A stretch of DNA of 64,000 bases, taken from assembly GCA_038400315.1 (NCBI GenBank), contig CP151667.1, positions 3,979,174 through 4,043,173 of the forward strand. The letters are read 5' to 3'. Below the pieces are notes generated by a model. That model did no database searches, was not told the origin of the DNA, and saw only the letters and a list, made by a program, of their open reading frames with translations. The translations under genes were made by a program, and so were the position numbers. Shown here piece by piece: positions 2,243 through 36,832 of this stretch (its first letter is position 1; each line of letters opens with the position of its first letter). The stretch is from Isosphaeraceae bacterium EP7. Its GTDB lineage: Bacteria > Planctomycetota > Planctomycetia > Isosphaerales > Isosphaeraceae.

Positions 2243-2328
2243 TGGCACGCCCTGCCGGGTGCGGTAGTTGGCCTTTTAGGCTGGCTGAGCGGGCATAGAG
2301 GTGCGGGTAGGGGCCATTCGGGAAGTGG

Positions 2329-2376
2329 AAATGATCGCGTAAAAGGAGCCCACCCTGATCGTCTAAAAGGAGCCCA
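2329..2376 (+). repeat. IS21 left terminal repeats
   Basis: Two adjacent copies of a motif (ATGATCGCGTAAAAGGAG and CTGATCGTCTAAAAGGAG, each followed by CCCAC) form the outer end and an internal copy. The outer copy is repeated inverted at 7380-7395 and the inner one at about 7338-7360. These are the expected binding sites of the IstA transposase. Confidence 0.8.
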
Positions 2377-2423
2377 CTTGGTCCTGGAAAATGGCCGCTC
2401 TGGGCAAGAGCGGCAGGTCTTGG

Positions 2424-2849
2424 TCACTCGGGCTTTCGGCTCTTCTTCGACTTCATCGACTCGCGGAATCTGTTGCTCTCGCCATTCATCTCGAAAATGT
2501 GGCAGTGGTGGCAGAGCCGGTCGAGAAGGGCCGCCGTCATCCGCTCTCCCTGGAAGAGCTGGCCCCACTCGCTGAACGGCAGGTTCGTCGTCACCAGCAG
2601 GCTGCCACGCTCGTAGCGGTCGGCGAAGACGCGGAACAGCAGCTCCACCCCGCCACGGCTCATCGACACGTAGCCCAGCTCGTCGCAGATCAGCAGGTGC
2701 GCCTTCTCGAGCTGGCCCAGGAACCGGTCCAGCGTGTACTGCTTCTGCTCCTTCTCAAACCGGTTCACCAGCTCCGCCGCCGTGAAGAAGCGCACTCGCA
2801 GGCCGGCCCGACAGGCGGCCTGGCCGAGCCCGACCGAAAGATGCGTCTT
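2424..2849 (-). pseudogene. istB: istB, C-terminal portion (ATPase separated from its N-terminus)
   Basis: This is the second half of the IS21 helper ATPase. It resumes within the P-loop (KTHLSVGLGQAA) and contains the Walker B stretch LLICDELGYVS and the conserved LVTTNLPFSEWGQLF. It has no start of its own, because 2.49 kb of recombinase element separates it from the N-terminal half at 5341-5684. Joined at the shared AA dinucleotide, the two halves read in frame through GSHGTGKTHLS, a normal IstB P-loop. As it stands IstB cannot be made, so the IS21 is probably immobile unless the insert excises precisely. Confidence 0.9.
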
Positions 2850-2852
2850 GAC

Positions 2853-4940
2853 TCAGCCATCGCAGTGCTCCTTTGGGAAAGAGACGTGCGGCACTTTGCC
2901 CTCCTTGAGTCGCTTCATTTGCTCGATCGCCGAACGCGTTCTCGGGAACAGGTAGCATCCGCAACAGGCGTCCTTCTCCAGCAGGATTTGGCCCCTGCTG
3001 ATCTTGCGAGAGATCCAGGATCGATCGACACCGATCAAGCGGGCCATCTCGAGGGTGGTGTAGCCCGGCATGGGCTCGCCCCGTCGGAGTCTTTCCAGGC
3101 GCGACAGGATGCGATGGCGGCGGCGGAGCTTGCCGACGATCGCGGGGGTGAAACTCGACCGCCGGCACGGGCGAAGGCCTTCGACGTTGAGTCTCTCGGC
3201 GATCGTCGCGTCGTCCCGGCCTTCGTCGACCGCTCGACGAATCCGTTCGACGATGTGCGTTTCTCGTTCCGTCGAGCGGAACGACGACATCGCCACCGGG
3301 AACGACGTCTCGGTGACCAGCCCGCCGCTCCACACGATCCTCATCCGGACGATACCGTTGGTGTCGCGATCGAGGTTGACCCCGGCCACAAGGGTCCGCA
3401 ACATCGTTTTGCGGGCATCGACCGGGAGTCGCGCCCAGATGTCGGGCAAGCGGCGGCCGACATCAGCGAAGGCGGTTCGTAACGACTCCGGGATCGCGAC
3501 TGGCGGCGTGTCGCGACTCTTCAACTCGGTCAGCCGCGTCTTCGCCTGCTCGAGTTCCACGAGGGCGGCCTCCCACCTCGACTCCAAGGTCGATGCGATC
3601 AGGCGGTTCTCCGGGTCGACGCTGTCGTACTGCCGTTCGGCGCGTCTCGCCGCGTATTCCAGCCTTCGGACCTCTTGCTCCATGTGACGCTCCAACTCCC
3701 TTTGGTGCTCCAGTTGCTTGGCGTTGACGGATTCGAGGGCGTCGATCTCGGCCGGCCGAAGCGCCTTGAAGAACTCCCGCACCACGGCCTCGTCGATCGG
3801 GCGTCCGCCGATGTGCTGGCAGTTCGGCTTGGCATGCAAGGACTGGTAGACATTGCAGACGTATTGGAATCGGTTGTCCTTGTAGATCACCTGCATGGCA
3901 TGGCCGCATCGACCGCAACGCACGAGCCCCGTCAACAGGGCCTCGCCGCAACGGATCGCTTGTTTCCGCGTCAGCCGCTCCGCCATCTTCTGCCTGTTCT
4001 CCTCGATGGTGACCAGGATCCGCTCATGTTCCTCCCACGTAATGTACGCCGGGTAAACGCCCTTGACCAAGGCCAGCCAGCGGTCGCGGGGCTGGCGGAT
4101 CCTTCCCGTCGCGGGGCGACCGGGGACCTGACGTGTCGCATCGACGATCCGCCGGCCGTAGGCGAACGCACCGGCGTATGCGGGGTTCTTCAGGAGCCAG
4201 AGCACGACGTGCGAAGTCGGCTCCTTCCATAGCACGGTGCCCGCATAGAGTCCCGAGGTCTGTCGGCGCGGGAGTTTCAGCTGACTCTTCGCCATATACC
4301 GGAGGACTTTCTGCGCGCTGCCCAGTTCGCCGAACTTGGCGAAGACCAGTTGGATGCGGTCCCGGACGCTCTGATCGGGGTCGAATCGCACGACTCCGGC
4401 GGTGTCGCGGACGTACCCGGTCGGCAGGTGTTGCACCAGTTCGCCCCGCCCGGCCTTCGAGAGCCGGCCGGCATCCATCCTTAGACGAATGCTATGAAGT
4501 TCTGCTTCCGATAAAGTTCCTTTTAAACCAAGCAATAAACGATCGTTGAAATCACGAGGATTGTAGATGCCCTCGGCGTCGGCGATGAGGGTGTCGAACA
4601 ACCCACACAGTTCGAGTAGTCGATGCCAGTCGGCGCAGTTGCGCGAGAGCCGAGAAACCGCGGTGCCGATGATCAGGCCCACCTTGCGCAGGCTGACGTC
4701 GGCGACCAGCCGCTGGAACCCGTCCCGCCCCGCGACCTGCTTGGCGGACTGGGCCTGATCTTCATCGATGAGCACGATCTGATCCTTGCGCCAGCCCCAT
4801 TCGAGCAGGCGACCGCGGAGCGCCCGTTGGTTGGCGGCACTCTCGCAGTTCTTGAGGACTTGCTTGGGCGTCGACTGCCGCAGGTAGACGACGGCCTGAC
4901 GCTGCCGGTGGGTCGGCAGGATCTTGGTCGAGCCGTTCAT
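2853..4940 (-). CDS. Large serine recombinase (resolvase + recombinase + zinc ribbon)
   Basis: 695 residues, a normal length for large serine recombinases. The N-terminal resolvase domain carries the catalytic serine in VVYLRQSTPKQV, the SRLSRNCADWH arginine segment and the LLLGLKGTLSEAEL helix. A recombinase domain follows (about 190-310), then a zinc ribbon (VRCGRCGHAM...YVC...NC, about 330-380), a coiled coil rich in Arg/Glu (about 400-470) and a C-terminal HTH-like segment (TTLEMARLIGVDRSWISRK). It is the sole integrase/excisionase candidate of element 1. The start ATG at 4940 overlaps the stop of the upstream small frame (ATGA), implying translational coupling. No frameshift is seen; probably functional. 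Confidence 0.92.
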   Translation of the reverse strand: MNGSTKILPTHRQRQAVVYLRQSTPKQVLKNCESAANQRALRGRLLEWGWRKDQIVLIDEDQAQSAKQVAGRDGFQRLVADVSLRKVGLIIGTAVSRLSRNCADWHRLLELCGLFDTLIADAEGIYNPRDFNDRLLLGLKGTLSEAELHSIRLRMDAGRLSKAGRGELVQHLPTGYVRDTAGVVRFDPDQSVRDRIQLVFAKFGELGSAQKVLRYMAKSQLKLPRRQTSGLYAGTVLWKEPTSHVVLWLLKNPAYAGAFAYGRRIVDATRQVPGRPATGRIRQPRDRWLALVKGVYPAYITWEEHERILVTIEENRQKMAERLTRKQAIRCGEALLTGLVRCGRCGHAMQVIYKDNRFQYVCNVYQSLHAKPNCQHIGGRPIDEAVVREFFKALRPAEIDALESVNAKQLEHQRELERHMEQEVRRLEYAARRAERQYDSVDPENRLIASTLESRWEAALVELEQAKTRLTELKSRDTPPVAIPESLRTAFADVGRRLPDIWARLPVDARKTMLRTLVAGVNLDRDTNGIVRMRIVWSGGLVTETSFPVAMSSFRSTERETHIVERIRRAVDEGRDDATIAERLNVEGLRPCRRSSFTPAIVGKLRRRHRILSRLERLRRGEPMPGYTTLEMARLIGVDRSWISRKISRGQILLEKDACCGCYLFPRTRSAIEQMKRLKEGKVPHVSFPKEHCDG

Positions 4941-5043
4941 TCTCGACGACCTCCGTGAGAACCCCGATCATCGCCTCGGTGACCGCGTCGCGCTCGTTCC
5001 GGGGCAGGAGTGCCCAGACGCGCTGGCTTGGGATCGGCCGCAT
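4762..5043 (-). CDS. Possible second small accessory frame (WALLP type)
   Basis: It begins MRPIPSQRVWALLPRNER with a good ribosome site (AGGAGGGG) upstream of ATG 5043. The first 35 residues match in style the WALLP protein of element 2 (34381-34500). Unlike that copy it does not stop at the recombinase start but runs 180 bases into it in another frame. Either it is shortened by a frameshift in this copy, or only the first part is meaningful. Low confidence beyond residue 35. Confidence 0.3.
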   Translation of the reverse strand: MRPIPSQRVWALLPRNERDAVTEAMIGVLTEVVENERLDQDPADPPAASGRRLPAAVDAQASPQELRECRQPTGAPRSPARMGLAQGSDRAHR

Positions 5044-5317
5044 GGTCGCCCCTCCTTCCTGAGCGCACAGCTTGGAAGGCGGCGAGCAGGGCTTCAACGG
5101 CGGCGACAGTGAGGACGGTCGGTTCGGGGCGGGGCTCGGCGGAAAGGTTGGTGCAGGCGATGGGGATGTAAGCGATCAGGCCGGGGAGGACTTCGACCTG
5201 GCAGTGACGGACGTGTCCCGGGAGCCGTGCGAGCCCGGAGAGCTTGAACGTCTTGCCGAAGAGCGGATGACCGGGGTCGGTGACGGTGACTTGCCCCTCG
5301 CATTCCTCCGTGACCAG
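4937..5317 (-). CDS. Small protein encoded upstream of the recombinase, DUF5372-like
   Basis: This frame reads (LVTEECEGQ)VTVTDPGHPLFGKTF, then KLSGLARLPG and VEVLPGLIAYIPIACTNLS. It resembles the short VTHPFHPLFGxxF-type proteins often found directly before planctomycete and actinobacterial recombinase genes. The stop TGA overlaps the recombinase ATG. No ATG, GTG or TTG lies in frame near the end of the element; a CTG at 5317 is the only candidate, so the start is uncertain. The function of the family is unknown; an accessory role in recombination or directionality is only a guess from position. Confidence 0.5.
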   Translation of the reverse strand: MVTEECEGQVTVTDPGHPLFGKTFKLSGLARLPGHVRHCQVEVLPGLIAYIPIACTNLSAEPRPEPTVLTVAAVEALLAAFQAVRSGRRGDHAADPKPARLGTPAPERARRGHRGDDRGSHGGRRE

Positions 5318-5340
5318 AGGGGTATTACGCTGGGCGAGGT

Positions 5341-5684
5341 TTTCCAGTCCCGTGGCTGCCCACCAGGCAGCAGTTAAATTTCTGGTCGATCCACTCGCCT
5401 CGGGCCAGCTCGAGGGTCTTCGGCTTGGAGAGGTTCGGCATCACGCTGAAGTCGTTGGTGTCGAAATCCTTCTCGACCGGGAATCCCGCGTTCTTGATCC
5501 TCGCGGCCACCGCGTTGGCCGATCGCGAGGCCAGCTCGACCTCGGTCAGTCGCAGCAACAACTCGGCGGGCGTCTGGTTGTTCGAGGCGGCGTCTCGCGC
5601 CAGCCTCTCGAACTCCCGGCCCATCGTCGGCAGGCGGAGCTGTTTCAGCCGGGTCTTGAGCAGCTCGATCGTGACATCGGCCAT
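5341..5684 (-). pseudogene. istB: istB, N-terminal portion
   Basis: Starts at ATG 5684 behind an AAGGAGG ribosome site, 40 bases after the istA stop: MADVTIELLKTRLKQLRLPT. It runs through the IstB N-terminal helical domain (ELLLRLTEVELASR) to CCLVGSHGTGK, then leaves the family at the element junction and stops at 5325 after four foreign residues (PRPA). The break falls between the invariant Lys and the Thr of the P-loop. Confidence 0.9.
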
Positions 5685-5724
5685 CGGCAAGGTCCTCCTT
5701 GAAAAGAGTGCTGGAGTGATTCGA

Positions 5725-7269
5725 TCAGGCATAGGACACGCCGATCGGGCTGTCCTCGACGCGGCCCAGGAGCTGGTCGAACCGGCTCAGGTCGGGCAGC
5801 GGTACGTCGACTCGGGTTGTGGCGAATGACTCCGAAGGGGTCGAAGAGTCGGGGGCCTTTGCGGCTTCGATCGATGCCAGGGCCCTGGTGCGGCGGATCA
5901 CGGCGTCGGCCGTGTCGCGCTGCTCGCGCACGCAGGTCTCGATGGCAGTGCTCAGGCGCGTCAAGGGGTGCTCCGTGAGCAGTTGCAGGACCCGGGCGTA
6001 CTGCCGGGCACCGGCCGAGGGGCCGTGTTGACGCTCCAGTCGCCCCCGGAAGTCGACGAAGCAGGCCGGCAGGCTCCAGTCGCGGAAGACCGGCGCGTGG
6101 TCGAGCGAGCCGGGTTTCCTGCCCAAGACCGCCAGGAAATGGAGCGGGTCGAGGATCATCCTCGACTTCTCCAGCGATCGGGCGTGGGAGGCGACCACCT
6201 GGCCGCCCGAGGCGATCGCGACGCGATCGACGAAGCCCTTGACCGTGACCAGCCCGAACGCGAACGCCCGGGGGACGCTGTAGCGGTTGCCGTCGAAGGC
6301 CACGGATTGGTACTTGTCCACCGCGACGGCGGGATGGATCACGCAGGCCTCGAACCGATTCCGGGGCAAGGGCGACGCCGAGGCGAGGTCCTCGGCGAGC
6401 CGGTCCTTGATCACGAACGGGCCGGCGAGCGACCGCACGACCCGGTCGCGTTCGCAATGGCACCAGAGGCGGAGCAAGGTGTTCAACTCGTCGAGGTCGT
6501 TGACGCGAGGGACAGGGGTAGCGAACCGCTTCTGGACGGCCTTGACGGTGCCCTCGGCGTCGGGCTTCTCGTTGCCGCGGGCCGGCATGCAGAACCTCGG
6601 CTCGAAGACGTGATGGCTGGCCAACGCCGCGTATCGCGGGTGGACTCGGCGCTCGCGCCCTTTCAGGATCAGAGTGGCGACGGTCCTGGGGTTGTCCCAC
6701 CAGACCTCCACGGGCACGCCGCCGAAGAACTCGAAGGCGGCGACCATCCCCTCGAGGACGGCCTCGGTGCGCTCGAACGGCAGGGCCAGGACGAACGGCG
6801 CGTTGAAGTAGGCCCAGGCGGCGACGAGGAACGGGACGGGCCTGCGGCCGTCGGGGAAGTCGACGTGGATGTGGCCGAAGTCGGCCTCCATGCGTCGTCC
6901 CGGCAGGTGGCCGAGGGGGATGAAGGTCTCGCGATGCCGGCGCCGGTGCTTGAGCACATAGCGTTGGACCTGGGCATAGCCTCCGGGATAGGCATGCTCG
7001 TCGCGGAGGCGGCGATGGATCTGGGCGGCGGTGTGCCGCTGCTTGGGAGGAGCATCCTCGTCGTCGGCGAGGATGCGATCGATGATCGGCTCGACCTGAC
7101 CGAGGAGCGGAGCTGTCCTGTCACGGGCCGTCGGTGTCGGCGGTTCGGCATGGTCGAGGACATGCCGGACGGTCTTGCGAGTGTGTCCGAATTGCCTGGA
7201 GATCTGCCGGATGGACATGCCATCACGACGAGCCCGCCGAATCGCGCCGTAGTCGTCCACCGTGAGCAC
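5725..7269 (-). CDS. istA: IS21 transposase IstA
   Basis: 514 residues, the usual IstA size. The N-terminal HTH (DGMSIRQISRQFGHTRKTVR, residues 17-36) is followed by a DDE integrase-type core: first Asp in RMEADFGHIHVD (about 131), second Asp in VWWDNPRT (about 193), Glu in KPDAEGTVK (about 239). A C-terminal beta-barrel segment follows (YQSVAFDGNRYSVPRAF). It cuts and joins the ends of the IS21 element as a multimer with IstB. The reading frame is intact, but its partner istB is split, so full transposition should fail in this state. Confidence 0.95.
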   Translation of the reverse strand: MLTVDDYGAIRRARRDGMSIRQISRQFGHTRKTVRHVLDHAEPPTPTARDRTAPLLGQVEPIIDRILADDEDAPPKQRHTAAQIHRRLRDEHAYPGGYAQVQRYVLKHRRRHRETFIPLGHLPGRRMEADFGHIHVDFPDGRRPVPFLVAAWAYFNAPFVLALPFERTEAVLEGMVAAFEFFGGVPVEVWWDNPRTVATLILKGRERRVHPRYAALASHHVFEPRFCMPARGNEKPDAEGTVKAVQKRFATPVPRVNDLDELNTLLRLWCHCERDRVVRSLAGPFVIKDRLAEDLASASPLPRNRFEACVIHPAVAVDKYQSVAFDGNRYSVPRAFAFGLVTVKGFVDRVAIASGGQVVASHARSLEKSRMILDPLHFLAVLGRKPGSLDHAPVFRDWSLPACFVDFRGRLERQHGPSAGARQYARVLQLLTEHPLTRLSTAIETCVREQRDTADAVIRRTRALASIEAAKAPDSSTPSESFATTRVDVPLPDLSRFDQLLGRVEDSPIGVSYA

Positions 7270-7379
7270 GTCCTCGGCCTCCGTACGGGTGATCGATCCC
7301 TGAGAGGACGTTCACCGTAACGGGGCCGCCTGGGGTGGGCTCTTTTTAGACGATCATCTCGCCCCTGGGTGGGCTCCTC

Positions 7380-10202
7380 TTACGCGATCATTTCCGCCTT
7401 ATTAATGTTATCTAATAATGGCCCGTGGTCCCCGTACAGCTGAAAACCGGCCCAATGGCGGAGAAGGCGTCGCCGCGACGGGCCTAAGGTCAAAAAATCC
7501 CGCCTAGCGGCCGCTACCGCTTCGTCACGAGGCAATGCGTCGGCGTGATCATAGAAGGAATGGACGAATGTGGCACCTTCTTCGTCGTGGACCGGCCATA
7601 AGCAGGCCAGGACACTGCCGGCGCCGGAGCGGCAGAGGGATTCGGGGAGGCTCACGGTCAGACGGCCGGGGAGGAGGAAGCTGTCGGCGAGCCAGCAGTT
7701 AGACAGCGTGACGTGGCGCAAGTGGGGGAAGGTCACGCGGGAGAGGTCGCGAAGGTTCAGGACTTCGGGATCGCCGTCGCGGGGCAGGAGGAGGAGGCCG
7801 GAGGAGTCAGGCTGATCGGGGCGGAAAAGGCCGTGGCAGGCAGCGTGGACGAACTCGGCCTCGCGCCAGAGAGAGAGGACGGCGGGACGGGTGGCGTCGC
7901 CGTCGACGAGGACGGAGACCGGCACGGAGCGGGTGCGGAACCAGTCGGCCGTGCGGAGAACCTCCGGGATTGTGCCGGGCAGGGAGGGGATTCCGCGTGG
8001 GTAGTTGGCGCGGGGGGGAAGCCCGCCCGAAACGGCGACGGCGAGGAGCCCGCCGCCCGACGCCGGGGGGGACGACGGCTGGCGGGACCGGTCGAAGGCG
8101 ACGCTCAGGGCGTAATCCTCCGCCAGGTAGCGGCCGCGGTGCCGCAGGGCCGCGAAGGGGAATCCGTGCAGGCTGTCGTCGGGCACGATCGTCAGGCGAC
8201 GGACGTCGGCGGGGAGCCCGTCGAGGAGCTCGGACAGCCCCAGGTCGTCGGACAGTTCCTCGGACAGGGCGTCGGCCTGGGCGTCGTCGTCGTCGCTGAC
8301 GCACTCGATCCATCGCGCGACGAGGCCGCGCAACCGCGGGCGAGGGAATGGGCGGGTGAAGGCGTCGAGCCGCCCGCGACAGACGCGGTAGGCGAAGACG
8401 GCCTCCGGCAGGACGAGGAACGAGAGGATGGCCCGGTCGGGCGGGGTGCGCCACGGATCGGGGTCGGAGTCGGGGCCCGAGGCGGGCCGTGGCCCGTCGT
8501 CCCGGCCGGATTGGGAGCGGAACACGTCGCGGCGCGTTTCGTCGAGGCGATCGAGGAAGGCCTGCACGCGGCGATGATGGGCGCGACGATCGGGTCCGTC
8601 GGCTTGCGGGGCGTCGGCGGCCTCCTCGGCCAGGAGGGCGGCCTCGCGGGCGAAGCACTCCTCCGCCTCGGCCCACTTGTTCCAGCCGTAGATGGCCCGT
8701 TGGGCCCCGGACAGCGAGTTCGTGAGACGGCCGAGGAGATGGTCGGCGAGGCGAAGGTCGAGGGCGGCCCGATCGGGTTGGTCGTGCAGGTCGGCGCAGC
8801 GGGCGCGCAGGCGGAGGGCCTGCCAGAGGTCCGGGCGCAGGCCGAGCCGATCGAGCGAGGGGATGGCCAGGTCGAGCAGGCGCTTTGCTTCGAGGGAGTG
8901 GCCCCGATCGAGGGCCAGCATCGCTCCGTAGAGGAAGAGCCGGGAGACGGTCAACGACGATTCCCCGACCTGAAAGCTGTCGCGCAGGTTGTTGAAGGCG
9001 GCACCGGCGAAGGCCAGGTCCCCGGCGGCCATCGCCCAGTGGAGTTCCAGCGCCCGATCCTCGAACAGTGCCAGATAGGTCGGGGGAGCGGACAGTTCGG
9101 GCGGTCGGCCGACAGCGATCGCGCCTCCCGGGCGACCGGGCGAACGATCGCGCCACAACTCGATGACCGAGGGGGCCGTCCCGGGGTGGCCGAGGTGGAT
9201 CGCGCGGGCGCGGACGAGGGTGGACAGGAACTCGCCCCGCGCGGCGGTCGTCTCGGCGCCGATGGCGCGGGCCGCGCGATCGACCCACCGCACGAGGTCG
9301 GCGGCGGCGGACGTCTGGTTGAGGAAGAGCAGGATCTGGGCCTGATTCAGGACGGCCGCCAACGCGGCCCGGGCGAACCCGCCGCGACGGCACAGGGCGA
9401 CGACTTCCTCGGCCGTGCGGAGGGCCGCGCCGAACTCCCCGCGCAGCAGGTCGAGCTTCCCCCGCAGCTCTAGCCATTCGACGTGATGCGCGGGATGCCG
9501 CTCGGGGTCGACGAGGCCGGCGAGGTGCGCGAGCACGCCGTCGCATGAGGCGAACTCGCCCTGCTCCAGGAGCGTCCGGGCCAGGGCCAAGCGCAGCGCG
9601 GCCAGCGCCTGGCAGGCTAGCGCCGGCGCCGGCGGCACGGCGTGCCGCGCCCCCCGATCAAGCAACAGGGCCGCCTGCCCGAAAAGGCCGCGGCCCGAGA
9701 GCCAGAGGCCGACGACCAGGTAGAGGCGCGACAACAGCAGGGAGCGATCCGGCGGCGAGGCGGTCGGCCAGCAGCCGCGTTCCCAGGGGGCGAGGTCCTC
9801 GGCGCGCGTCGGGGTCCTCCGGAGCGGGCCGATGTGCGGCTCCAGAGATGCGATCAATCCTCTCGCCTCGACCGGCACGCCGCGGAGCAGGGCGAGGTGG
9901 GCACGCTTCAAGCGATAGTAGCCCGCCGCGACGAAATTCCGGTCCTGATCCGCCGAGGCGACGGCGGCGCGGAGCAGCGTGTCGGCCGGCCCCTCATGCC
10001 CGAACGAGACGGCTAGGTCGGCGATCCGTTCGAGCAGGACGCGATCGATCGACGCCAGCGTGCCGCGCCCGGGGAGGAGCCGCCGCGGGAGGAGTTCGAG
10101 GTACAGATTCAGGGCCAGCGCCCAGTTCCCGTGGCGCCACGCGTCTTCGGCGCGGTCGAACAGGTCGCCGTCTTCGGGGGTGTCCGGGGGGTCATCCATC
10201 AC
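7380..10202 (-). CDS. TPR-CHAT protease, third gene of the operon
   Basis: 940 residues. The first 530 are TPR-like helical repeats (ALNLYLELL, AALRTAEEVVALCRRGGF, AADLVRWVDRAARAIG). The C-terminus (about 600-930) is a CHAT domain of the caspase/separase clan: His790 in ACHGLF and Cys836 in LSNCWLAD form the expected dyad, with the WAGFQLYGD ending. CHAT proteases cleave protein partners after activation by a sensor or scaffold; the partner here is unknown. It lies 15 bases after the gene at 10218-14639, so it is probably co-translated. The last six or seven codons and the stop come from the IS21 end at 7395, so the natural terminus is lost but the protease domain is complete. Confidence 0.85.
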   Translation of the reverse strand: MMDDPPDTPEDGDLFDRAEDAWRHGNWALALNLYLELLPRRLLPGRGTLASIDRVLLERIADLAVSFGHEGPADTLLRAAVASADQDRNFVAAGYYRLKRAHLALLRGVPVEARGLIASLEPHIGPLRRTPTRAEDLAPWERGCWPTASPPDRSLLLSRLYLVVGLWLSGRGLFGQAALLLDRGARHAVPPAPALACQALAALRLALARTLLEQGEFASCDGVLAHLAGLVDPERHPAHHVEWLELRGKLDLLRGEFGAALRTAEEVVALCRRGGFARAALAAVLNQAQILLFLNQTSAAADLVRWVDRAARAIGAETTAARGEFLSTLVRARAIHLGHPGTAPSVIELWRDRSPGRPGGAIAVGRPPELSAPPTYLALFEDRALELHWAMAAGDLAFAGAAFNNLRDSFQVGESSLTVSRLFLYGAMLALDRGHSLEAKRLLDLAIPSLDRLGLRPDLWQALRLRARCADLHDQPDRAALDLRLADHLLGRLTNSLSGAQRAIYGWNKWAEAEECFAREAALLAEEAADAPQADGPDRRAHHRRVQAFLDRLDETRRDVFRSQSGRDDGPRPASGPDSDPDPWRTPPDRAILSFLVLPEAVFAYRVCRGRLDAFTRPFPRPRLRGLVARWIECVSDDDDAQADALSEELSDDLGLSELLDGLPADVRRLTIVPDDSLHGFPFAALRHRGRYLAEDYALSVAFDRSRQPSSPPASGGGLLAVAVSGGLPPRANYPRGIPSLPGTIPEVLRTADWFRTRSVPVSVLVDGDATRPAVLSLWREAEFVHAACHGLFRPDQPDSSGLLLLPRDGDPEVLNLRDLSRVTFPHLRHVTLSNCWLADSFLLPGRLTVSLPESLCRSGAGSVLACLWPVHDEEGATFVHSFYDHADALPRDEAVAAARRDFLTLGPSRRRLLRHWAGFQLYGDHGPLLDNINKAEMIA

Positions 10203-32360: not shown

Positions 32361-34060
32361 TCAGTCGCCACGCGGCCCTGGTGTTCGCAATCGGGCCAAT
32401 CGCTCCTGATGATTCCACAGTCGGGGGCATTCTTTCAACGCCCGGAGCCGGTCCAACTCCGTCGTGTCGACCCACACCGTCCAAGGGCCGCCGCGGCCGC
32501 CCAACTGGCGCGTGTGCATCCAGCCTTTCTTCCGCCAGCCGTGCAACGTGTACGGCGATAGCGCCAGGGTCTGCGCCAGGTCGTGCAACCACACTTCACC
32601 CGACGCCAGGAAGCCCGCCGCCGTCTGGCGCGGCACGCGGGCCCTCAGGCCCAGCTCGTGGAGCAACCGTCGTACGATCCCGCCCGTGAACCGGGTCGCC
32701 CTCTTGGGCGGCCGAAAGCCCTCCTGGTCGAGGATCGTCGCGATCACGTTGGGCGTCTCTCCCAGGCCGTGCAGGGCCGCGAGTCGGCATGAAAGCGGTT
32801 TCCATTGTCGTTGCTTCGTGCATCCGAACACTTCCCTCGGCAGCGTCCGCTCCCGCACCGCACCTCCGGCCCATTCGACTCGTACATTGACATGATCATT
32901 GTCTGAATCAACGGTCAGCACCACGCGGTCGATGAGGAGCCTCACGATCTGGCGGCGGTCCGCGTGTGTCGTCGTGGGGGCATGCCACAAGGACGGGACT
33001 TCCGCGGCCAGGCGGCGGATCCGCTCCCGGTCGGCCGGCCCCAACAATCGCGGCTGCGCCCTGAGGAAACGATTGAAGTCCTCCTCCGCCTTCCGGACGG
33101 CCTGCAACGCCTCATCCCAGCGACGCTCCAGGGTGCGGCCCACCAGGCGATTCTCCGGCTCGCAGGCCTGGTATTGCCGGCCGGCCCGATCGGCCTCGTA
33201 CCGCGCCCGCTCGACCCGACGCTCCCAGTCGCGGATCACCTGACGTCGCTGCTCATCGACCCGCGACGCCGCCTCGAGGCTGGCGTCGAGGGCCGCCGGT
33301 TGCAAGGCCTCCACGACCTCCCGGGCGACCCAGGCCTCGACCTCGATCGCCGAGACCGATTGGCACAGGGGTAGGCCATAGTCCGACCGCAGCGTGCTGC
33401 AGACGTACGTGGGGCAGCCGCCGCTCCGCCTGTATCGCACGTACATCCGACGCCCACATCGTCCGCACCGCACGACCCCCGCCAGCAGGGCGGACCCGTC
33501 CCGGACTGCGCCGGGCGACTCGACTCGCGACCGGTTCGCCGCCATCCGCCTCTGGTTCGCCTCGAACTGGTCCCAACTGATGTACCCCGGATACCGATCC
33601 CTCAAGAAGACCTGGCATTGCTCCGCAGTCAGGCCGCTGCCGCGGCCACTCTTGGGGCTGCCCGGCTTCCGGCGGCGTGGGTCGACCGGGCGAAATCCAT
33701 AGACGTAAGCCCCCGCATAGATCGGATGGCGGAGGATGTGGCGGACGGTCTCCCGGCCCGGGGGCCTCCAGTCCAACTCCCCCCGATCGGGCCCGCCGCG
33801 GCGACGTAACGGCATCCGGATGCCGTAGGCGATCAGATGACGGAGGACCCCGTGCACCGTCCCCTGGCGATCGAACTGATCGAAGACCAGCCGGACGATC
33901 TCCCGGACCTGCTCGTCCGGGTCCAAGCTGACCTCGCCGGCCGGCGACTTGACGTACCCGACCGGGACGGCGACGACCAACTCCCCGCGACGAGCCTTGT
34001 TCAATTTCCCCTGGTGCATCCTCTGCTTGAGGATGTGCAGCTCCGCTTCGTTCATCATGC
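32361..34060 (-). pseudogene. Element A serine recombinase, C-terminal portion
   Basis: Family homology runs from MMNEAELHILKQRMHQGKL through the recombinase domain (HILRHPIYAGAYVYGFRPVD), the zinc ribbon (VVRCGRCGRRMYVRY...YVC), the coiled coil, and a C-terminal HTH-like segment (WLHDLAQTLALSPYTLHGW) to the stop at 32361. The catalytic domain is 2.3 kb away at 36392-36832. The open frame continues upstream to 34817, but those residues are element 2 read backwards. Confidence 0.9.
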
Positions 34061-34069
34061 CGGTGAGCA

Positions 34070-34384
34070 GTGCAACACAACCCACAGTCATTCCACATCC
34101 GCGGGATTCGGGTCGGTATCCTCGAGGTTTGTCGCCCAGAAGTCGGCGACCTCTTTGCCACCGTGACCGACTACTTCTGGAGGGAGGATGCCCCATGGCT
34201 CGTCCTGCAACTGCCCGACGGCCGACGGTCGGTCGCCCCGGCCGACTGGACCGACCTGCCCGCCGATGCCTTCCCGAAGATCCCGGATCGACCGCTGCTC
34301 CTGACCCACGCCCTTCCGCCGATGGCCCGTCTGTGCCAGCGGCTCGGGCCCACCCAATCGGGCCGACGTCGGCCGACGGCGTGA
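34070..34384 (+). CDS. Small accessory protein, first gene of element 2
   Basis: 104 residues from a GTG 11 bases inside the element end: MQHNPQSFHIRGIRVGILEV, later DYFWREDAPWLVLQLPDGRR and VAPADWTDLP. Short proteins of this style occur before serine recombinases in planctomycetes; the function is unknown. Its TGA overlaps the GTG of the next gene. Confidence 0.55.
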   Translation: MQHNPQSFHIRGIRVGILEVCRPEVGDLFATVTDYFWREDAPWLVLQLPDGRRSVAPADWTDLPADAFPKIPDRPLLLTHALPPMARLCQRLGPTQSGRRRPTA

Positions 34385-34500
34385 CGCCCGAGGTCCTCTG
34401 GGCCCTGCTACCGGCCGCCGACCGCGAGCAGTTCGGCCTGCGTCTGTCCCGACTCGTGCTCCGGGCCATCCGCTCCCCCGGCACCGAGGAGGACGTGTGA
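34381..34500 (+). CDS. 39-residue WALLP protein, second gene of element 2
   Basis: GTG start overlapping the previous stop (GTGA): VTPEVLWALLPAADREQFGL, then RLSRLVLRAIRSPGTEEDV. Its TGA overlaps the recombinase ATG (TGATG). The same W-LLP-R pattern occurs in element 1 (from 5043) and as LPWTTIPELRRQQLLRLLG in element A. The recurrence argues it is a real gene, perhaps a directionality or regulatory peptide. Confidence 0.55.
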   Translation: MTPEVLWALLPAADREQFGLRLSRLVLRAIRSPGTEEDV

Positions 34501-36368
34501 TGCCCGACGATCCCAAGATCCGCGCCGATCACCTCCGCCGCCAGGCCGTCGTCTACGTCCGCCAGTCGACCCCGCACCAGGTCCGCAGCAACCGCGAGAG
34601 CACCGCCCGGCAGTACGCCCTGGCCGACCGGGCCAAGGCGTTGGGTTGGTCGGCGGCAGACGTGCAGACCATCGACGAAGATCAAGGGCGGTCCGGGTCC
34701 CGCTCCGACCACCGCGACGGGTTCAAGAGGCTCCTGGCCGAGATCGGCGCCGGCCAGGTCGGGCTGGTCCTGGCCCTGGAGGCGTCCCGGCTGGCCCGCT
34801 CGTCGGCCGACTGGCACCGGCTCGTCGAGATCTGCGGGATCACCAAGACGCTACTGGCCGACGAGTCCGCCGTCTATGACCCCAGGGCCCCCAACGACAG
34901 GCTTCTCCTCGGGCTGAAGGGGACCTTGAGCGAGGCGGAGCTGATGACCATCCGCTGCCGGCTCCACGACGGGCGATGGAGCAAGGCCCGCCGCGGTGAG
35001 CTGGCCAAGCCACTGCCGGTCGGCTACATCGAGGCCGAGGCCGGGGCCGTGGTCAAGCACCCCGACCGCCAGGTCCAGGATCGGCTCGGGTACATCTTCG
35101 AGCTGTTCGCCGAGCTGCGAGTGGCCCGCCGCGTGGTCGCCCGGTTGCGGTATGAGAAGCTGGACATCCCGGCCCAAGCCCGGGGCGGTCCGGGACACGG
35201 CGAGGTGCGATGGAAGGTGCCGACGTTCGGTGCCATCATCCGGATTCTGCACAATCCTGCATATGCAGGCGCGTACGCCTATGGGCAGAAGGAGTACGAC
35301 CCGTTCGATCGATCCCCGGCGACCGGCAAGGCCAGGACGACGGCCCGGGCGGTGGCCGACTGGCCGGTCTGCGTCCGCGACGTGTACCCCGCCTACATCA
35401 CCTGGGACGAGTTCGCGCGGAACCAGCAGACGCTCCGGGACAACTGGTTCCGGGCGGGCACGCGAGGGGCGCCGCGACGCGGGCAGGCGCTGCTCCAGGG
35501 GATCGCCCGATGCGGCCGGTGCGGGGCCCGGTTGAGCGTGTTTTACTACTCGACGAAGGAGAAGCGGGCTCCGGGATACGGTTGCGTCGCGGGGTACGCC
35601 GACGGCGGGGCGACGTGCCAGATGATGAGTTCGGCGCCGGTCGACGCGGCGGTGGCCGAGTTGTTCCTGGCCGCCGTCACCCCGGCCCAGCTGGACGTGG
35701 CGCTGCGGGCGATGGACGCGTACGAGGCCGAGCGGGCCGAGGCCCGGCGGCAGCGGCAGATGCAGGTCCAGAGGGCCGATTACGAGGTCGAGATCGCCCG
35801 CCGGCGGTACGAGGCGGCCGACCCGGCCAACCGACTGGTCGCGGCCGAGCTGGAGTCGCGATGGGAGCAGGCGCTGCGGGAGCGGGAGCGACTGAAGCGG
35901 GAGGCCGAGGAACTGGACCGTCGGACGGCCAGCCCACTGGGAGCGGCCGAGCGGCGACGCGTCCGGGAGATGGCCTCCGACCTCGGCAGAGTCTGGCACG
36001 CGGCGACGACCGGGATGGAGGACCGGAAGGAACTCTTGCGTTTCCTGGTTCACCGGGTTTACCTGGATGGGGTGACCGAGGCCGGGCAGATCCGGCTCGA
36101 GGTCGAGTGGCACACCGGGGCGCGGTCCAAGGTCACCGTGCCGCGTCCGGTCGTCGGGGCGTGGGCCCCGAAGACACCGGCGGCGGCGGTCGAACGGATT
36201 CGCCTGCTGCTGTCTACACGTGACTACAAGGCGATTGCAGAGACCCTGAACGAGGAGGGCTATCGGACGGCGAAGGGGTTGAAGTATGACATTTATTCAG
36301 TTGGATATGTCGCTCGAAGCCGCGGCTGGGGACGGTCGGCGGCGAGGCGACCGGAGCGCGAGGTGTAA
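34500..36368 (+). CDS. Large serine recombinase of element 2
   Basis: 622 residues. Resolvase domain with catalytic Ser in VVYVRQSTPHQVR, Arg segment ASRLARSSADWHR, and helix LLLGLKGTLSEAELMTI. Recombinase domain (about 165-320, ILHNPAYAGAYAYG), zinc ribbon (ARCGRCGARLSVFYY...GYGC...ATC), coiled coil (about 400-480). It lacks the C-terminal HTH-like tail of the other two recombinases, so target choice may differ. Intact and coupled to the upstream gene; the only complete recombinase in this nest. Confidence 0.93.
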   Translation: MPDDPKIRADHLRRQAVVYVRQSTPHQVRSNRESTARQYALADRAKALGWSAADVQTIDEDQGRSGSRSDHRDGFKRLLAEIGAGQVGLVLALEASRLARSSADWHRLVEICGITKTLLADESAVYDPRAPNDRLLLGLKGTLSEAELMTIRCRLHDGRWSKARRGELAKPLPVGYIEAEAGAVVKHPDRQVQDRLGYIFELFAELRVARRVVARLRYEKLDIPAQARGGPGHGEVRWKVPTFGAIIRILHNPAYAGAYAYGQKEYDPFDRSPATGKARTTARAVADWPVCVRDVYPAYITWDEFARNQQTLRDNWFRAGTRGAPRRGQALLQGIARCGRCGARLSVFYYSTKEKRAPGYGCVAGYADGGATCQMMSSAPVDAAVAELFLAAVTPAQLDVALRAMDAYEAERAEARRQRQMQVQRADYEVEIARRRYEAADPANRLVAAELESRWEQALRERERLKREAEELDRRTASPLGAAERRRVREMASDLGRVWHAATTGMEDRKELLRFLVHRVYLDGVTEAGQIRLEVEWHTGARSKVTVPRPVVGAWAPKTPAAAVERIRLLLSTRDYKAIAETLNEEGYRTAKGLKYDIYSVGYVARSRGWGRSAARRPEREV

Positions 36369-36391
36369 CTTGCCGTGCCTTATCTCATGGA

Positions 36392-36832
36392 GCTCTTGAG
36401 CCCGAGCAAGAGTCGGTCATGGTAGTCGGTCGGGTCATAGAGGCCGTCCGCGTCGGCCAGGAGCGTTCGGAAGCAAGCACATAATTCCAGGAGCTGATGC
36501 CAATCTTTACAGGACCGGGCCAGTCGGCTCATCTCGAGGCCGAGGATCAAGCCGACGCGGTCGAGCGCGAGTTCGGCCAGGAGTCGCTGGAATCCCGGCC
36601 GTCCCTCGGCCGACTGGCCGCTCTTGCCGAGGTCGTCATCGATGACCATGACCTGCTCACGTGCCCATCCGAGTTCCACCGCGCGATCGGCGAGGGCGTA
36701 CTGACGCGCGGTGGATTCGCGATGGTCGAGGACTTGCTGGGGCGTGGATTGCCGGATGTAGACGATGGCGCTGCGAGACAGGTGCCAGCTCTGGAGCTTG
36801 GGCGAACGGGCCGGCGGCGAGGCGTCATTCAT
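36392..36832 (-). pseudogene. Element A serine recombinase, N-terminal catalytic portion
   Basis: MNDASPPARSPKLQSWHLSR, then IVYIRQSTPQQVLDHRESTA with the catalytic Ser, SRLARSCKDWHQLLELC, and HDRLLLGLK. There it meets element 2 and stops after SSMR. It holds the whole catalytic fold up to the E-helix, but no DNA-binding domain. A truncated dimer might still form, though cleavage is unlikely. Confidence 0.9.

Follow-up and report, generated by a model that had tools for sequence, protein, structure and literature searches.

We propose that the insert splitting istB in an IS21 of this planctomycete chromosome is most probably a self-contained serine-recombinase mobile element rather than a part of the IS21, one that enters the DNA encoding the istB P-loop and carries its attP within its own ORF1. 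This model best accounts for the target, the core, the empty site, the gene content and the in-frame ORF1 of the predicted circle, all of which can be read from the window (the whole 64,000-nucleotide stretch of DNA analysed) and from its relatives. In the model, the recombinase would join a circular attP to an attB formed by the istB Walker A codons, with strand exchange at a 2-bp AA core. Conservation of the protein motif would make the P-loop DNA a reliable target, and the same lineage appears to have entered unrelated IS21 copies repeatedly. With attP placed inside the element's ORF1, integration would separate ORF1 from its SD and ATG as well as split istB, and excision would restore both together. 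The recombinase reads in the istB orientation, and the IS21 promoter probably drives at least part of its transcription. The features on which the model is built are as follows.

2327..7395, minus strand: host IS21, with 29-nt terminal inverted repeats and with istA and both istB halves inside
5725..7269, minus strand: istA, 514 aa, intact (NCBIfam NF033546 IS21 transposase, E 6.6e-70)
5341..5684, minus strand: istB 5' part, up to GSHGTGK (PF01695, E 7.6e-16, and junction)
2424..2849, minus strand: istB 3' part, from KTHLSVGLG (PF01695, E 2e-35, and junction)
2848..5342, minus strand: inserted element, 2,493 bp plus the repeated AA core (junction sequences)
5341..5342, minus strand: AA core at the left junction, attL (sequence; 2-bp overlap measured in the sister element L134 versus L199)
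2848..2849, minus strand: AA core at the right junction, attR (sequence)
4937..5341, minus strand: ORF1 body, 134 codons and stop, lacking a start codon when integrated (conserved in relatives)
2858..2860, minus strand: ORF1 ATG, at the opposite element end, 11 nt before the core (sequence)
2868..2874, minus strand: SD-like AAAGGAG for the ORF1 start (sequence)
4762..5043, minus strand: ORF2 (MRPIPSQRVWALLP...), 93 aa, a frame with SD-like GGAGG before its ATG
2853..4940, minus strand: large serine recombinase, 695 aa, ending 4 bp from the core (PF00239, PF07508, PF13408; PHROG integrase family, E 1e-52)

The host has the make-up of an IS21, with istA, an interrupted istB and 29-nt terminal inverted repeats (2327-2355 versus 7367-7395) that are 97% complementary and each have a second internal copy. 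The 3' end of a 940-aa ORF (7380-10202, minus strand) adjoins the IS21, and the last codons of this ORF reach the right terminal repeat. On the minus strand the left junction of the insert reads GGG ACT GGA [AA]ACCTCGCCC, with AA at 5341-5342, and the right junction reads GCTGAGTC[AA]G ACG CAT, with AA at 2848-2849. The shared AA forms the first two bases of the Walker A Lys codon, and joining the flanks there gives GGA AAG ACG CAT, with istB open over 255 aa and encoding GSHGTGKTHLS, so that at the sequence level exact excision would rebuild the gene as in skin and fdxN elements. The first-pass annotation had placed the interruption at 2848-5342, after the Lys and before the Thr of Walker A, with AA common to both junctions and a normal in-frame IstB on removal, and we find each of these to be correct, the coordinates to the base. 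The empty site and 2-bp core that it predicted, against the alternative of a close intact IS21 differing at the site, are likewise borne out in two settings. Three intact IstBs from the same bacterial family (L163, L164 and L179; 82-83% amino acid identity) have GG(A/T/C)AAGAC(A/T)CA at this position, which is the predicted empty site. The genome of the sister element L134 holds an intact IS21 copy, L199, of 93% nucleotide identity; the joined flanks of L134 match it in a single 806-bp alignment, and the filled copy breaks up into two alignments sharing exactly 2 bp (subject 1810-1811), as expected if a serine recombinase crossed over at AA. A 2-bp core common to attL and attR is what a large serine recombinase leaves.

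In the integrated state istB runs to residue 115 and then continues as PRPA and a stop. A query of the window's own genome returned no second IS21 copy, and thus no intact one, and no other IS21-type istB. IstB is a required helper ATPase of IS21, and because istB is cut at residue 115 in a genome that holds no other IS21-type istB, the IS21 should have no usable IstB while the element is in place. Excision would then be expected to reactivate it.

The 695-aa product combines resolvase, recombinase and zinc ribbon domains, all over their cut-offs, as is proper to a large serine recombinase, and its catalytic-type YLRQS motif is invariant. DUF4368, a usual domain of the TndX-like clade, is not among its Pfam matches at E 0.001; not all members of the TndX/TnpX clade carry this domain. 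The NCBIfam equivalog model for XisF, NF041201, scores 86.6 bits (E 1.7e-24) against a cut-off of 375 bits. ORF2 contains a short helical-looking segment, VWxxL...Exx, and the same segment precedes the recombinase in other elements; two ORF2 relatives gave no match in Pfam or NCBIfam. Since neither ORF2, with its own SD, nor the recombinase loses its start when integrated, ORF2 is the likelier candidate for an excision directionality factor and ORF1 is likelier to act on the free circle. Elsewhere in the window, the region 32361-36832 has a further large serine recombinase gene (34497-36368, plus strand; 43% identical) nested in another, minus-strand recombinase gene, which is split at a conserved GLKG motif into 36380-36832 and about 32628-34067; contig C367 of genome G396 has the same recombinase-in-recombinase arrangement.

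ORF1 is divided between the two ends of the element. The integrated ORF1 frame of the window offers no ATG, GTG or TTG from the upstream stop to the element, and the same is true of L029, L035, L037, L048 and L134. In all ten istB elements for which both ends are available, a start codon stands at the right end exactly 11 nt before the core (ATG in nine, GTG in L059), in most of them preceded by an SD-like sequence, and when the predicted circle is joined at AA, ORF1 is open in every one, at 125-171 aa. The junction of the window's predicted circle reads GATGGCTGAGTC-AA-ACCTCGCCC, which would put attP in codons 4-5 of ORF1 and hence inside a gene of the element. ORF1 is also open, at 132 aa each, in the predicted circles of all three relatives from outside istB whose ends are fixed by identical copies at different sites. 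Over the wider set of recombinase loci, an SD-like start occurs in only 5 of 63 integrated ORF1 frames, and a right-end SD-ATG is found at 47 of 59 loci versus 12 of 51 in a control stretch. That the in-frame join stays exact in elements whose recombinases are 39-61% identical speaks for selection on the joined frame, and the identity matrices of ORF1 and the recombinase correlate with r 0.82 among the ten two-ended istB elements. Two near-identical Bradyrhizobium elements, L024 and L061, diverge just past the right-end ATG and disagree on the right boundary; their simplest circle, drawn by eye with ends that are not fixed, has no open ORF1.

Integration would thus behead ORF1 and circularisation would restore it. 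In most plasmid copies ORF1 has escaped annotation by gene callers, and its lack of a start codon in integrated copies explains why annotation pipelines overlook it. ORF1 may be made only from the circle and act on the free form, for example by favouring integration. No family for it exists in Pfam, NCBIfam or PHROGs, and a PDB sequence search with an ORF1 profile returned nothing credible. The predicted fold is a small SH3-like barrel and a helix, with pLDDT of about 90 for residues 10-60; Foldseek gave the model no match at E 0.001, and VIA-align against many SH3-like barrels gave Z of at most 5.8, within the range of common arrangements. We claim no ORF1 function from this predicted fold, and our suggestions for ORF1 and ORF2 are guesses.

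A scan of 84,980 genomes with the family alignment yielded 80 loci, to which further genome searches added more; since conserved recombinase peptides served to find these loci, their frequencies are not unbiased, and many contigs end near the element. A scan of viral contigs gave no relatives. Fourteen elements, the window's and 13 relatives, sit at exactly the Lys/Thr(Ser) position of istB. The 13 (39-61% recombinase identity) lie in divergent istB genes, in Gemmatimonadota (L028), Chloroflexota (L029, L035, L037, L048, L059 and L080), Thermomicrobiota (L070), Planctomycetota or the same class (L030, L031 and L134) and Bdellovibrionota (L033); the last, L075, is unassigned, and its contig includes the left junction only. 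Cultured carriers with complete genomes include Ktedonobacteria brp13, with L035, and Microvirga ossetica, with relatives. At least one rebuilt site, that of L029 (4961-4990), has already lost the Walker A Thr: it would read GKP in place of GKT or GKS, and excision would not restore a normal loop. A further member of the window's recombinase clade, L032, lies at GK|S of what appears, from the translated flank read by eye, to be another AAA-type ATPase. Other placements of kin include genes that read by eye like IS110 transposases (L078 and L128), sites adjoining IS66 genes (L024 and L026), dctP (L023) and other positions in istB (L092, L105 and L135, near the C-terminal TTNLPF region or in the N-terminal part, with L105 in the opposite orientation). 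In the IS110-transposase-like genes, L078, L128, L129 and L132 are close kin of the istB-targeting recombinases and stand before VKAVPGRKTDV. The occurrence of IS110, IS66, istB and recombinase genes among the targets suggests that the family often lands in genes of mobile elements, and identical copies of relatives at different sites indicate that it has moved recently.

Whether the shared position in istB reflects repeated entry or common descent can be judged from the histories of the two partners. The recombinase tree has 53 rows, of which eight make up the clade of the window, seven in istB and one in another P-loop (SH-aLRT 99); a second istB-rich group of 11 rows includes two IS110 insertions and two unassigned members. 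The recombinases found in istB P-loops are therefore not a single clade, as IS110-inserted and unassigned members fall among them. Distances between IstBs and between recombinases agree only weakly among the ten two-ended elements (Mantel r 0.42, with 92 of 5000 permutations as high), as exemplified by L059 and L080, whose recombinases are 66% identical and whose IstBs are 30% identical. With intact IstBs the window's IstB shares 82-83% identity, and with any interrupted one compared over full length at most about 49%. Because of this weak agreement, and because the window's IstB is nearer to intact than to interrupted IstBs, our sequence comparisons favour repeated parasitism of a conserved coding site over a co-evolved IS21 switch or co-descent.

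The better of the alternatives, though in our view improbable, is that the element has been retained to switch IS21 off reversibly, its programmed excision turning transposition on, in the manner of skin and fdxN. The exact in-frame repair of istB on excision would be expected of such a switch, as would the open istB parts of nearly all carriers and the complete joined IstBs of eight of ten (L070 meets a contig end and L080 is truncated), and the window's genome is without a spare istB; the distant likeness of the recombinase to XisF, far under the cut-off, could be read in the same way. Against it stand the loosely matched histories of IstB and recombinase, the presence of the same lineage in a non-IS21 ATPase (L032) and of close kin in IS110, and the GKP loop of L029; moreover, IS21 is never seen depending on an insert, and close intact IS21s do without one. 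Of the on/off claim in the first-pass annotation, we retain the exact Walker A interruption, the AA core and the normal istB as excision product, and set aside an evolved IS21 switch, which is at odds with the divergent istB targets, L032, the r of 0.42 and L029.

Still less probable is a composite in which the recombinase element is a passenger moving together with IS21, the shared position going back to descent from one early insertion. The orientation common to all carriers and the positive, if modest, IstB/recombinase correlation (r 0.42) would suit joint travel, but a stable association should not leave the window's nearest IstBs intact, nor L134 with an intact IstB copy of 95% identity in the same genome, and the r of 0.42 compares with 0.82 for ORF1 and the recombinase. 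A dead relic, or a chance insertion without site preference, is highly implausible, for although the element is single-copy in its genome and no sigma-70-like promoter was found in the region by a scan expected to be little informative in this organism, 14 elements share one codon, the recombinase, ORF1 and ORF2 are all open, and the family has moved recently.

Repeated parasitism by a self-contained element therefore remains our preferred reading. About as likely as not, in our view, is a broader proposal that the sequences also allow: that these elements form a widespread family of minimal serine-recombinase transposons with an ORF1 assembled only in the excised circle, attP lying between its start and its body; that the Walker A codons of IS21 istB have become the special target of one lineage, which thereby disables the mobile element in which it lands; and that ORF1 serves as a sensor of state, distinguishing free circle from integrated copy.

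This model shares individual traits with several known systems. Diverse large serine recombinases have been found to converge on one conserved coding site, as in the gene for a Mg chelatase/ATP-dependent protease or for a prolyl isomerase (Durrant et al., PMC10083194). There, as here, the target is a single conserved gene; here it is the helper ATPase of a transposon, and the element, at 2.5 kb, is minimal. Neither IS21 (0 occurrences) nor istB appears in the main text of Durrant et al., and a literature search of partial coverage found no paper joining large serine recombinases with IS21 or istB. Cyanobacterial interruption elements of the fdxN/xisF type likewise use a serine recombinase, split a gene and repair it by exact excision, and a few interrupt transposase genes (PMC4874684); the present element differs from them in having no apparent developmental link and no xisH or xisI, and its XisF score is far under the cut-off. 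In the integration-dependent immunity of mycobacteriophages such as BPs, attP also lies inside an element gene and integration alters the product, with a tyrosine integrase removing the 3' end of a repressor to yield its active form (PMC9262239). Here, in contrast, a serine recombinase splits off the 5' end, with the SD and ATG, of an ORF1 that has no family match, and ORF1 should be off when integrated.

In Tn4451/TnpX and several ICEs, according to PMC13023037 (citing Lyras and Rood 2000), joining of the ends in the circle creates a signal by which a gene at the opposite end is expressed. In the known cases a recombinase promoter is created or moved, whereas here a translation start would join an accessory frame. 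If the model is true, it would provide a clear case of a mobile element parasitising the conserved ATPase loop of another across phyla, and many natural recombinase/target pairs for P-loop DNA. What appears to be new relative to all of these systems is the right-end SD and ATG predicted to join the left-end ORF1 in frame across the AA core, in ten of ten two-ended istB elements and in three relatives elsewhere; such a split ORF1 would be a simple genetic device that reads the integrated versus the free state through the assembly of a reading frame.
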